DNA of 64,000 nucleotides from positions 141,054,361-141,118,360 of the forward strand of contig NC_079492.1 in the NCBI RefSeq assembly GCF_020520425.1. The letters are read 5' to 3'. Within the stretch, counting starts at the first letter, position 1. Each line of letters begins with the position of its first letter. The position numbers and the translations under genes were made by a program. Shown piece after piece: positions 46,801 through 52,800 of the stretch. Source of the stretch: Spinacia oleracea (Eukaryota; Streptophyta; Magnoliopsida; Caryophyllales; Amaranthaceae). The notes below the pieces were generated by a model. It was not told the DNA's origin. It worked only from the letters and a program-made list of their open reading frames with translations, and made no database searches.

Positions 46801-49800
46801 GGGAAGTCTGGCCAAAGTACCTGGAGAGTTATAGTACTCAGGTGGATCATAAAACAACATGGCTTCTCGTAATCGATGGCGTTTTCCTTCAGTACCAGCG
46901 TACTGGAATGTGGTATGCACTGCATACGGCTCCAGTTTAAATTGTTGATACATTGCCTGTGAAATAAGTATCACTCTATAAATCATTCTCAAAAATGTGT
47001 CCTTACATACTACAGCGCAGAATTTTTATTCAAACTCCTGGACCCTATTAAGCCAGACATAAAGATTAGTAGTCCGCAAATCAGAATGCAATACATACAG
47101 ATGGCTTTTCTGAGATACTGAGGAGAGTTTGCTGAAACGAGAATGTGTACAATTAAGAGTATAGAAGACAAAAGATCTGTTACAATTGCGCCTATTAATA
47201 AAACAGACTATCTGGAAACAAAGTCCCTAGAAAACACAAGTGGGGAAAACCGACAAAGAGGCAGCAGGAGTCATATTTTCAGGGACAACCTGGTATCTAA
47301 AGCTTCAATCACTGTGTTCCAACCTAATACGCCAGATAACAGCTGACAAATGGAGAAATATTTCCAGGGACAACCTGGTATCTAAAGATTCAATCACTGT
47401 GTTCCAAGATCTTTCCCTGTAAAATTAAGCTGACAAATGGATTCCAACATTTGAGGTGGCTATTGTACACCAAACCTACTACCCCTGTCTACCCCGTCCT
47501 TCATCCCCAAATAATAGACCACATCCTAGTTTAGGCCATCCCAAATATAAAGGCCAATTTCTAGATTCAGTATGTTAAATTTATTTTTCAGTATGATGAT
47601 GACACCATTAAACAAAAATTCCAAAAAAAAAATCAATTGGTATGGTGCACATGTAAAATGTTTATAGCCAACGGATAATTATTGTACTTAGCTCAACTCC
47701 TTAAAGATGATTAACCATATACGGCCTGGTATTAGGTATAAAGGGAGTAATTCAGGTTGATCAAGACATCCAAGCAAGGTGCAATAACAGAAGAGATGCT
47801 AATTGTTCTGGCTACAATTAAAGTGCAAAACATAAATCCAGGAACAATGCCTGATATAGGCTCCTCTTCAACAGCAGGTTGCTGGTTACACTAAGAACAA
47901 TCATTATACAACACTAACTATACTCAAAATGGTCACTCAAGGGAAATATTTGACTCTGCCTGGTACTTCTCCAAATGAATTGCCAACATAATGGGTGTCA
48001 AACAAGCAGGGGTAACAAGTGGAGAATAAAGTTCTGAGCATGACTTGCTCTATATTATCAACACTCCAGACCCTAGTGTCTGATCCAGCAAGGGAACAAA
48101 AATCAAAAGGTTCCTAATCTAACTTCCTCAAATCTTCTCCTGAAACAAAAACGTACAAAATTGAATCTTTCTTTTAGTGCATAAACTTCTTTACGGAAAT
48201 TACTTACTTAGACAGGTACCTGACTCCTGAGTAATATAGGTTGGGTAAATGGGACATCTTCCCTTAAATTATCCCCCCATGATGAATTAAGTAATCCAAT
48301 CTGACTCAAAATCCACCTTAATGGACATTAACTTCTCCATAAGTGCATATGTGACTTACTTGTCGTCGTTGTCGACCACTCAACCATTATGAACAACCTA
48401 CTAGCAGGAAACAATACAAATTCGGAAGACACAGTGCCAGAAGTAGCTCCGCCTTAGAAATTATTAAGCTATATTAGGAATATTAAATATTATGTTAATA
48501 TTAGGATTGCCATATTAGTATCCTAATATTAGGATTAACATAATATTAGTATAATATCTTAAAATTAGGATTACCATATTATTAGTAGTATTATCTTAAT
48601 ATATCTAAGAATAGTTAGGTTGAAAATAGTTAGGAATTGTAATATATATATTCATTAATTTAATAAGAAGGAAGGTGGCTCTTTGCGTCATATTTGTCAT
48701 GGTATCAAGAGCAAGGTAAGATTTTTTTTTCCTCCGCAAATTTGAGGAGAGAAATAAGGTGAGTTTTGAGGTCGTGTAATGACGAAGGATGATGAGGAAA
48801 CTCCGCCACCGAAGGATGAACTTGCGAAGGAATACTATCTAGGATCATCTGATGGTCCAGGAAATATACTTACACCTATTAAACTTAGAGGCTCCAAGAA
48901 CTACGATGAGTGGTCTACATCGGTTCGTAGAGCTTTGATTTCGAAGAGAAAATTTGGCTTCATTGATGGATCAATCAAAGAACCAACAACATACCCGGAT
49001 AGACTTGCAGATTGGATTGCTGTCCAATCTATGTTGGTATCATGGATCACACACACGTTGGAGGAATCGTTGAGATCAACCGTAGGAGATTATGATAATG
49101 CCGAAACTTTGTGGCTTCACCTGAAGAAGCGCTTCTGCGTGGTCAGCGGCACACGTGTCTGCAAATTAAAAACAAGCCTCGGTGAATGCAAGCAGGGAGG
49201 TAATGAGACAGTAGCTGAGTATTATGGCAGGCTGTCCATTATCATGAAGGAACTTGTGAATTATGCAAGGGTACCTAAGTGTGATTGTGGAGGTTGCACG
49301 TGTGGTATTGCAGCGCAAGTAGCGGAGATTAGAGAAGAGGATCATTTACATTATTTTTTGATTGGGCTTGACAAACCTTACGAAGCCATCCGAGCCTATG
49401 TTACTCCGAGTCTCCGACACGGCGTCCGGCAGTGGGTGTCGGTGTCGACACGACCCGACCCGCGACACGACACTCGACACATGTCCGGGGAGGTGTCGAC
49501 ACCGGTGTCGGAAAAGAATCCAAAAATCAGGTGTCGAACTCTTTCTCTTTGTTGTAGATCTGAACTTCACCGGAAAAATAATGGGCTTTGATCTCCTTGG
49601 TGAGGCGAATCGGCCGGAAAAAATGGCTGAAATAAGGGTCAGGAGAGAAAGAAGAAAGAGAAGAAAGAAAACAGAAAGAAGGGTTGAGGAGAGAGAAAGA
49701 AGAAAGACAGAAAGTGGGTTGTGGTCCAACCCTTCATCTTTTATTAAATTTTTTTAGTATTAAAGTTCTGTAGCTGAACAGTGAGGGAATCTTTTAGCTT

Positions 49801-52800
49801 TTTGAGGGCTTTTTTTTAGTTTTTACGGAGTAATAACTGCTCGTATTCCGTATTTTATTTTTTGTTTTTATTTTTTTACACCATTCACCTTTCCTAGATA
49901 AGACTTTTATCTTCCCTATACAAAGACTTTTATCTTCCCTATACAAAGACTTTTATCTTAGCCTATTAAAGAAGTACATAATACCATATACTTTTTTTTT
50001 AATGTTTACTTTTAGAAATTTTTAATTTATAAAAAGTGTCGATTTTTTTCCGACACTTTATATGGTAACCGTGTCTAAAACCCTAGTCAAGTGTCTACAA
50101 AAATTTGGATCGAAGTGTCGGATACTCCGACACACGTGTCTGACACGACACCGACACCCGTGTCTGAGTAACATAGATACGAGCCCAATTACTAGGACAG
50201 ACGCCTCTACCTTCGATAGATGAAGCATACCAATCAGTGACTAATACTGAGGATTTACGAATAAAGGAAGGCCATCAACGTGAGGGTAACATTATCGCTT
50301 TCAAGACTGAGGTACGAGGTAAGTCGGGTTATCGAGATCATGCCACTAGATTTTGTAACATTGCAATAGGGAAGGCCATGAGGATGAGACGTGCTACCAG
50401 CTAGTTGGCTTTCCCGAATGGTGGGATGATAGGAGAAAAGGAGGACGAGGCTCTGGCCGTAACAATAGTAGAGGCGGTCGTGTAGGAGGCAATGGTGTCA
50501 CAGGGCCAAGTAATCAAGGGGCAGTAGGTGGTGTGCGAGCTAACAAACTCACAAGCCAGGGACATCAAACTTCTTTTGCTGCTTTTGGGATGACCGAAGG
50601 GCTAGCAGGAGTATCCTCCACTCAAGTCCAGCAGATTATTGACCTGTTGACATCCAAAACCAATATGAAATTGCAAGGTATATGCGATAATAATTTATTA
50701 TGGATCGTTGATACGGGAGCATCAAATCATGTTACAAACGACCTCTCAATATTGATGAATGTGCGGACGATCCAAAATTGCCCTGTAGGCCTCCCAGATG
50801 GACAATTCACTAATTCGAATCAAATTGGTTCGGTGGAATTGAATGGAGGATTAATACTTGATAATGTGTTATTTGTACCTACTTTAAATTGCAATTTAAT
50901 TTCTGTGACGCAATTGAGTGATGAATCAAACTGTGTGATTCAATTTACTAACAAGATATGTGTTATACAGGACCGGTTGACGAGGAAGATGATTGGCCTA
51001 GGTGAACGAAGGGATGGACTTTATTTTTTTCGTGGAACTCCGTTGGTCAAGGTGTGTGCGGTTGAGACAGAATGTGTGGTCGAACTGTGGCATCAACGAA
51101 TGGGGCATCCATCGGAAAGAATTGTGAAGCTTCTTCCTCCTGTGAGTAATGTTGTTAGGAGAAATAATAATGTATGCGATGTTTGTCCTCGTGCTAAGCA
51201 TACTAGGAGTCCTTTTCCTGTTAGTGAAAATAAACCTGGCTCTGATACCATGACAAATATGACGCAAAGAGTCACCTTCCTTCTTATTAAATTAATGAAC
51301 ATATATATTACAATTCCTAACTATTTTCAACCTAACTATTCTTAGATATATTAAGATAATACTACTAATAATATGGTAATCCTAATTTTAAGATATTATA
51401 CTAATATTATGTTAATCCTAATATTAGGATACTAATATGGCAATCCTAATATTAACATAATATTTAATATTCCTAATATAGCTTAACATCCCCCCTCAAG
51501 GTGGAGCATGTAGATCTCGAATGCCCATCTTGTCAAGAAAAAATAGGAGTCCTTTTCCTGTTAGTGAAAATAAACCTGGCTCTGATACCATGACAAATAT
51601 GACGCAAAGAGCCACCTTCCTTCTTATTAAATTAATGAATATATATATTACAATTCCTAACTATTTTCAACCTAACTATTCTTAGATATATTAAGATAAT
51701 ACTACTAATAATATGGTAATCCTAATTTTAAGATATTATACTAATATTATGTTAATCCTAATATTAGGATACTAATATGGCAATCCTAATATTAACATAA
51801 TATTTAATATTCCTAATATAGCTTAACATCCCCCCTCAAGGTGGAGCATGTAGATCTTGAATTTTTTCTTGACAGGATGGGCATTCGAGATCTACATGCT
51901 CCACCTTGAGGGGGGATGTTAAGCTATATTAGGAATATTAAATATTATGTTAATATTAGGATTGCCATATTAGTATCCTAATATTAGGATTAACATAATA
52001 TTAGTATAATATCTTAAAATTAGGATTACCATATTATTAGTAGTATTATCTTAATATATCTAAGAATAGTTAGGTTGAAAATAGTTAGGAATTGTAATAC
52101 TCCCTCTGTCCCAGATTAGTTGTTACACTTTCTTTTTTCGTCCGTCCCAGATTAGTTGTTACACTTCTAAATCAGGAATGACCCCACAATTATTATATTG
52201 TCTCTCTCTTCCCACTAATTTTCTTTTTGTCCCCACCCCCTCTCTCATTCAATTAAAAAATTTCCCCACTAACTCCCATCACATCTACTTTTTCAGTAAA
52301 ATAACAATTGATAACCAAACAACCACTTATTATCTAAAACTTTGTGCAAAGGTAAGTGTAACAACTAATCTGGGACGGAGGGAGTATATATATTCATTAA
52401 TTTAATAAGAAGGAAGGTGGCTCTTTGCGTCATATTTGTCAGAAATAGAGACACTTATAAACCCACTAAAATATTTTTTATATCACATTATAAAGCCCTA
52501 ACTACCCATTTATAGGCTAGAAAACATTAGCCCAAGCCACCAAAATTCCCTATACTTATCGCCAAACCTGTATATGTGAAATCCCTAAGCCTTTCCAGCT
52601 TTCCCCAACCCCAGACCAAAGAAATTCAATTGCTGTCTATTCAATCCCCTGTGCAGCTAACCCATGATTCTAAACAAGGTTAGCAAAACAAAATACAAAC
52701 GGGGTGAAAGTAAGGAAATTGGTTAAAAGTAATGCACCTCCAAGAGAATAAAAGGCGCCTTTAACACATCTAACCTCTAAGAAATCTTCTCAGCAAAAGA

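Follow-up and report, generated by a model that had tools for sequence, protein, structure and literature searches.

In the sections concerned of Sabot and Schulman (2007, PMC1950507), complex long terminal repeat (LTR) elements of grasses carry an internal LTR between two complete cores, which is traced to a switch between the R regions of two RNAs. In Ty1 and Ty3, according to the relevant part of PMC5371799, the first plus-strand product copies 12 nt of the initiator methionine tRNA (tRNAiMet), is displaced and accumulates as a dead end; the primer-binding site (PBS) of the progeny is not this tRNA copy. According to the part used here of a 2025 review (PMC12786077), yeast Ty1 is the element with which reverse transcription has been studied, and plant elements are presumably similar; section 3.4 of that review gives indirect plant evidence for strand transfer. 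Here we describe a Copia element in 64,000 nt of Spinacia oleracea DNA (C6:141054361-141118360, hereafter the window), in which four 238-nt LTR copies, the inner two inverted, lie in one GAAAT target-site duplication (TSD). Unless a locus label (Lnnn, G000) is given, positions are those of the window. The rearrangement is most likely a primer-marked reverse-transcription accident, and not the self-integration proposed by an earlier reading of the letters alone (the sequence-only reading). Like the grass elements, this one has an extra internal LTR in one 5-bp TSD, near-identical outer LTRs and a rearrangement attributed to reverse transcription. It departs from them, with their two complete cores, in having a single core, which is truncated, a pair of inverted LTRs and, at the junction, a tRNA copy; neither inversion nor a tRNA tag is described in the sections concerned of that paper, the closest plant precedent that we found. 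Among the papers listed from an open-licence library, judged by title and abstract opening, none reports a plant element with an internal LTR that is inverted and marked by tRNA.

The inner LTRs are set apart by the sequence that adjoins them. As relatives we took 15 loci (L009-L023) chosen from 55 matches to the LTR plus leader, one of which (L015) has no readable PBS. In all of the other 14, a diverged PBS with CAAGG as its end stands between the LTR and the leader, which reads AAGGTAAGATTT in most. This family PBS is exactly TGGTATCAAGAGCAAGGTAAGATTT in six of the 14 and has an extra A in nine, and in every one it mismatches tRNAiMet, with A for the second C of GAGCC. Both inner LTRs are followed by antisense TGGTATCAGAGCCAGGTT, which reproduces the final 18 nt of tRNAiMet without a mismatch, so that the exact tRNA type is present in 2/2 inner copies and 0/14 relatives. 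One and the same insertion carries the family PBS at the canonical place and the tRNA copy at two aberrant places. CCA is added to the 3' end of a tRNA, and the tRNA-Met(CAT) genes of this genome, which we take to be the initiator genes, end in AACCTGGCTCTGAT plus A. The sequence GATCGAAACCTGGCTCTGAT has 17 genome sites, one of them the locus L063 discussed below; ARAGORN called tRNA-Met(CAT) in all 12 that were fetched, L063 included. Position 58 (A58) of initiator tRNA is methylated and stops reverse transcriptase, and the 18-mer extends up to that position, which is itself excluded. Because the integrase also has AAA at the junction, the length of tRNA copied is 16 to 19 nt.

The genome (894,210,420 bases in 242 contigs) was searched by pattern, and each count is a lower bound. 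The LTR end joined to the tRNA-type PBS has two exact sites, both of them the inner copies. None of 40 further sites at up to three mismatches has both TTTGTCA and GAGCCAGG, and several of the 40 belong to other LTR families, in which a PBS of the tRNA type is the norm. The 18-mer by itself occurs at 75 sites, ordinary PBSs of other LTR families among them. As in the relevant part of the Ty1/Ty3 account (PMC5371799), the tRNA-mismatched PBS of the present family persists (14/14), and the window element keeps it canonically. The tRNA copy here is 16-19 nt, against the 12 nt reported there, and the DNA that bears it was taken up into an integrated element. The inner units resemble tRNA-tagged material caught in an integrated molecule, though without a start at the polypurine tract (PPT). 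Because the 18-mer is the ordinary PBS of other LTR families here, the rule that the tRNA copy is not inherited would hold for the present family only.

The element spans 48462-52441, enclosed by the two GAAAT copies, and has the following parts:
48457-48461, unstranded: left TSD copy, GAAAT, from the sequence.
48462-48699, forward: 5' LTR, 238 nt; starts TA, the other window copies TG.
48700-48716, forward: canonical PBS of family type (TGGTATCAAGAGCAAGG), then leader TAAGATTT; matches the CAAGG-type PBS of relatives, which varies slightly.
48770-49402, forward: gag fragment, Retrotran_gag_3, copia type (Pfam PF14244, 1.6e-14); enters the insert after 49396.
49397-50176, unstranded: DNA-transposon-like insert in gag, 780 bp; relatives are contiguous here, and the class is inferred.
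50359-51231, forward: Pol_BBD, GAG-pre-integrase and integrase start (PF22936 and PF13976 on 50359-51342).
51232-51250, reverse: tRNAiMet 3' end copy of unit 1, 18 nt, antisense TGGTATCAGAGCCAGGTT; up to 3 letters common with the integrase AAA.
51251-51488, reverse: inner inverted LTR 1, 238 nt; two substitutions against the other window copies.
51489-51544, reverse: PPT and 3' internal end of unit 1, inverted, 56 nt; last T common with the integrase piece.
51544-51574, forward: 31 nt of integrase (TAGGAGTCC...AATAAA), present here for the second time.
51572-51590, reverse: tRNAiMet 3' end copy of unit 2.
51591-51828, reverse: inner inverted LTR 2, 238 nt; the TA start is the sole difference from the 5' LTR.
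51829-51862, reverse: PPT and 3' internal end of unit 2, inverted; 28 nt to GATCT, then fold-back letters.
51857-51916, forward: 3' internal end and PPT; palindrome loop 51863-51882 (20 nt) with 217-nt arms.
51917-52441, forward: 3' LTR, split by an insert; 238 nt without it.
52098-52386, unstranded: insert resembling a miniature inverted-repeat transposable element (MITE) in the 3' LTR; 40-nt inverted ends (93%), TA on both sides, class inferred.
52442-52446, unstranded: right TSD copy, GAAAT, from the sequence.

Self-comparison of the window gave inverted arms with 99-100% identity over 244 nt and 100% over 239 nt, far above chance, and the arrangement of four LTRs that the sequence-only reading had described was recovered where it had placed it. 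Its statement that the inner LTRs are bounded by a PBS and a PPT holds for the boundaries, but the PBS is of the exact tRNAiMet type and not the family's. Likewise, the 340-nt tandem duplication that it noted has a real period (starts at 51204 and 51544, 300 nt at 99% identity), but the two units end differently. We agree with it that the rearrangement is older than the integration, given one TSD, near-identical LTRs and the tRNA-type sequence; since that sequence stands at the inner copies, the rearrangement is best derived from a reverse-transcription intermediate. The two inverted LTR units together occupy 51232-51862. Similarity to relatives breaks in integrase, after AAA at 51232-51234, and a pol segment of about 2.7-2.8 kb (2669, 2775 and 2756 nt in the three siblings measured), from the integrase junction to near the 3' end, is missing. 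The tRNAiMet-type PBS, the integrase flank, the missing pol and the two inserts are features beyond those previously noted. Rfam gave no matches on the window and ARAGORN no genes.

Both inserts lie within element sequence. In gag, the matches of relatives end at 49396 and resume at 50177-50180; the flanks ATCCGAGCC/ATACGAGCC look like a 9-bp duplication (8/9), the ends are TATGTTACTC-like and inverted, and 49397-50176 has 73 genome matches, itself counted. The MITE-like insert is about 287 bp with ends CTCCCTCTGTCCCAGATTAG; it is absent from the other three LTR copies and therefore arrived after integration.

Membership of Ty1/copia is borne out by PF14244, PF22936 and PF13976, all above cutoff in window fragments; a third fragment, 50177-50401, had no Pfam match. 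In the sibling L011, rve (residues 390-479; 30.6 bits, slightly below its cutoff of 32.6) precedes RVT_2 (842-1027; 198.2 bits). The ends of the window element also conform, with GAAAT twice, a CA end, a PPT and PBS, and TG in three LTR copies, the TA start of the 5' LTR being the sole exception. Siblings have 5-bp TSDs as well (L009 AACTC, L011 CAGAT), with one and five mismatches between their respective LTR pairs; no TSD was found for L010, because the match to its 3' LTR stops 10 nt short of the end. The four window LTR copies differ by three substitutions in about 950 positions, and the outer two, flanked by the single TSD, by one substitution when the insert is set aside. At a plant substitution rate of 1.3e-8 per site per year, the insertion would be of the order of 0.2 million years old, with a wide error, and copying errors among the differences would make it younger. 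An origin of inner LTR 1 from a different sister element was considered and is thought unlikely: one of its two substitutions is private, and the other is found in 1/12 aligned LTR sequences of relatives (the 3' LTR of L011).

At both inner copies the tRNA copy runs directly into antisense integrase, with no leader. The integrase at this entry point reads AAAGCTGG in siblings versus AAACCTGG in the window. In L009 the entry point is one of 2 among 4,924 sense-strand positions that match AAACCTGG, the tRNA end, in at least 7/8. Six other siblings, taken over the whole fetched stretch with its flanks on one strand, have two or three such sites, always with the entry point among them. Over the lengths tried, 6 to 10, the family-type PBS never agrees with the entry site at more than half of its letters. 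A genome search found the junction of integrase, tRNA and LTR at the two inner copies only, even with three mismatches allowed, and there is therefore no sign within that search that the rearranged form has spread.

The loop of the fold-back, 51863-51882, lies 35-54 nt before the 3' LTR. Its inverted arm reads AGATCTTGAAT, while the forward arm predicts AGATCTCGAAT; the odd letter would be expected if the minus strand had reached ...ATTCAA, the sequence found in siblings, before a switch onto TCGAAT that left its own last letters in place. Unit 1 continues to ...GTCAAGAAAAAAT and starts at ...AAAAAAT/TAGGAG (1 shared nt), while unit 2 turns into the fold-back and starts there; the integrase-tRNA junction is common to both. 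Derivation of unit 1 by simple tandem duplication of unit 2 is ruled out, as the 3'-end stretch of unit 1 is the longer (56 vs 28 nt).

We consider it reasonably probable that this defective Copia element arose from errors of reverse transcription, in which tRNA-tagged strong-stop or self-primed cDNA was misdirected to a PBS-like site in integrase and the product was then integrated normally. The errors probably took place inside the element's particle. First, minus-strand DNA primed by tRNAiMet would have made its transfer to the 3' R, with extension across U3 and the PPT into about 60 nt of internal sequence. Second, its 3' end, ...ATTCAA, would have switched onto minus-strand DNA at ...TCGAAT (5/6 matching), by snap-back in cis or in trans, and then copied the PPT, the LTR and 18 nt of the attached tRNA before stopping at methylated A58. 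Third, the resulting end, ...CCAGGTT, would have paired with the PBS-like integrase site (AAAGCTGG, 7/8) instead of the minus-strand PBS, to be extended in the direction of the template's 5' end. Fourth, a further switch from ...CTCCTA to TTTTTTCTTG (1 nt shared) could have repeated the LTR, the tRNA and the integrase entry, giving the 340-nt tandem. Lastly, a normal second transfer would have made the 5' LTR with its family PBS, and integrase acting in trans would have inserted the linear DNA. The tRNA 18-mer, the antisense integrase, the missing pol, the fold-back and the single TSD are read directly from the sequence, and the order of steps is proposed on their basis. Least certain is the tandem: the PBS-like site may have served the misdirected end a second time, or re-entry of the loop may have taken the strand along its path again.

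Several observations weigh against this account. As plus-strand strong-stop DNA would, the inner copies end in a match to the tRNAiMet 3' end (18 nt, 2/2), but neither unit begins at the boundary of PPT and U3: their starts lie 28 and 56 nt before the LTR, which points to self-priming or another primer. DNA folding of the nascent strand did not predict the required snap-back and favoured another hairpin; as folding energies do not single out the hairpin, the switch may have been in trans. At the entry site, the antisense strand of L009 also has two sites at 7/8, the 8-nt match length was picked after the junction was known, and at lengths 7, 9, 10 and 12 the sense positions that are as good number 5, 6, 12 and 54 of about 4,920. 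Because the match length was chosen afterwards, the PBS-like match appears to be real but moderate support. The genome counts, as noted, are minima. Inside the 18-mer, only two changes (one base absent, one substitution) separate the tRNA type from the subfamily PBS, and its AAA and CTGG are also present in integrase, so that an inner PBS that is a mutated family PBS is improbable but conceivable. The sequence does not settle strand polarity or step order.

As to the joining of the pieces, the main alternative is host end joining before integration. Alternative end joining through 1-3 nt of microhomology would have united two cDNA fragments, a strong-stop duplex tagged with tRNA and a 5' half that stops in integrase, and the product would then have integrated. 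Junction overlaps of 1-3 nt and the short templated integrase piece (31 nt) suit it. Alternative end joining draws on PBS microhomology for second-strand transfer according to section 3.4, as far as it bears on this, of the plant-element review (PMC12786077); for a related study, a passage of that review names fly and mouse elements. However, the 7/8 match of the integrase site to the tRNA end goes beyond what end joining requires, and the identical junction is present twice, and we regard this route as unlikely.

Improbable, by a clear step further, is a rearrangement after integration, in which break repair with template switching, or gene conversion by another element, would have remodelled a formerly normal insertion. 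The junction microhomology is compatible with it, and the locus has not stayed as it was when the element integrated, as one later insert at least makes plain. Yet the pattern search of the genome yielded no donor with the LTR end and tRNA-type PBS, it is not obvious how chromosomal repair would come by a tRNA copy, and the four LTR copies differ by substitution at three sites only.

A one-LTR circle yields PPT-LTR-PBS continuing into the leader, and in autointegration the LTR termini attack an internal target with a 5-bp duplication. Such products and the present element have in common that a retrotransposon's own cDNA came to a dead end, Ty1 is known to undergo autointegration (PMC12786077, in the part consulted), and the inner LTRs are indeed inverted and flanked by PPT and PBS. 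Unlike them, the element has neither LTR ends joined internally nor PPT-LTR-PBS-leader. The circle junction seen by the sequence-only reading fails at both copies, where the PBS is of the wrong type and is followed by integrase with no leader. Its comparison with autointegration is not supported either, since each inner LTR keeps its PPT and tRNA-type PBS (2/2), its ends unused and not joined to target; we hold both origins to be very improbable. An assembly or polishing artefact is just as improbable: 217-nt palindromes and tandem repeats are difficult for noisy long reads, and the published spinach assembly is of Illumina-polished PacBio CLR reads (PMC8668906, relevant part), but such an error would hardly create a tRNA-type PBS for which the pattern search gave no other instance next to this LTR.

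Of the 75 genome sites of the 18-mer, 31 were scanned within 1.5 kb, the other 44 (the two window sites included) lying outside the scan. An LTR stands inverted beside the 18-mer at one of the 31. This locus, L063 (about 1075-1997; it contains G000:C5:99221769-99221793), consists of an LTR, a complete tRNAiMet in reverse with 1 letter changed, and the inverted LTR, and is the only exact genome match to the 25-nt tRNA read-through. Its arms are 92.6% identical in the 148 nt that adjoin the tRNA but 82% when 942 nt are compared, from which it appears old or of mixed origin; its LTR end is unlike that of the present family. Copying here seems to have run through the whole tRNA, and the final 7 letters of the copy, which complement the acceptor strand, could have served as a primer back on the LTR. 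L063 thus looks like a read-through and snap-back fossil, which suggests that tRNA-tagged strong-stop DNA with a fold-back entered the genome more than once. ARAGORN calls a tRNA-Met gene in L063, and such fossils can pass for tRNA genes. Among other loci, L035 and L036 (G000:C2:25243968 and 25248957) are two LTR ends, 5 kb apart on the same strand, that share the same 45 letters before a tRNA-type PBS, as in an LTR-sharing tandem element.

We tentatively propose, at rather less confidence than the reverse-transcription origin itself, that a plant Copia reverse transcriptase copied 18 nt of tRNAiMet without passing the copy to the progeny PBS, and that this locus is a natural record of the event. 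An LTR with a PBS and a PPT is, by itself, no proof of circles or autointegration. A chromosomally fixed, tRNA-marked junction shows the identity of the primer, the extent to which it was copied and the exclusion of that copy from the normal PBS.

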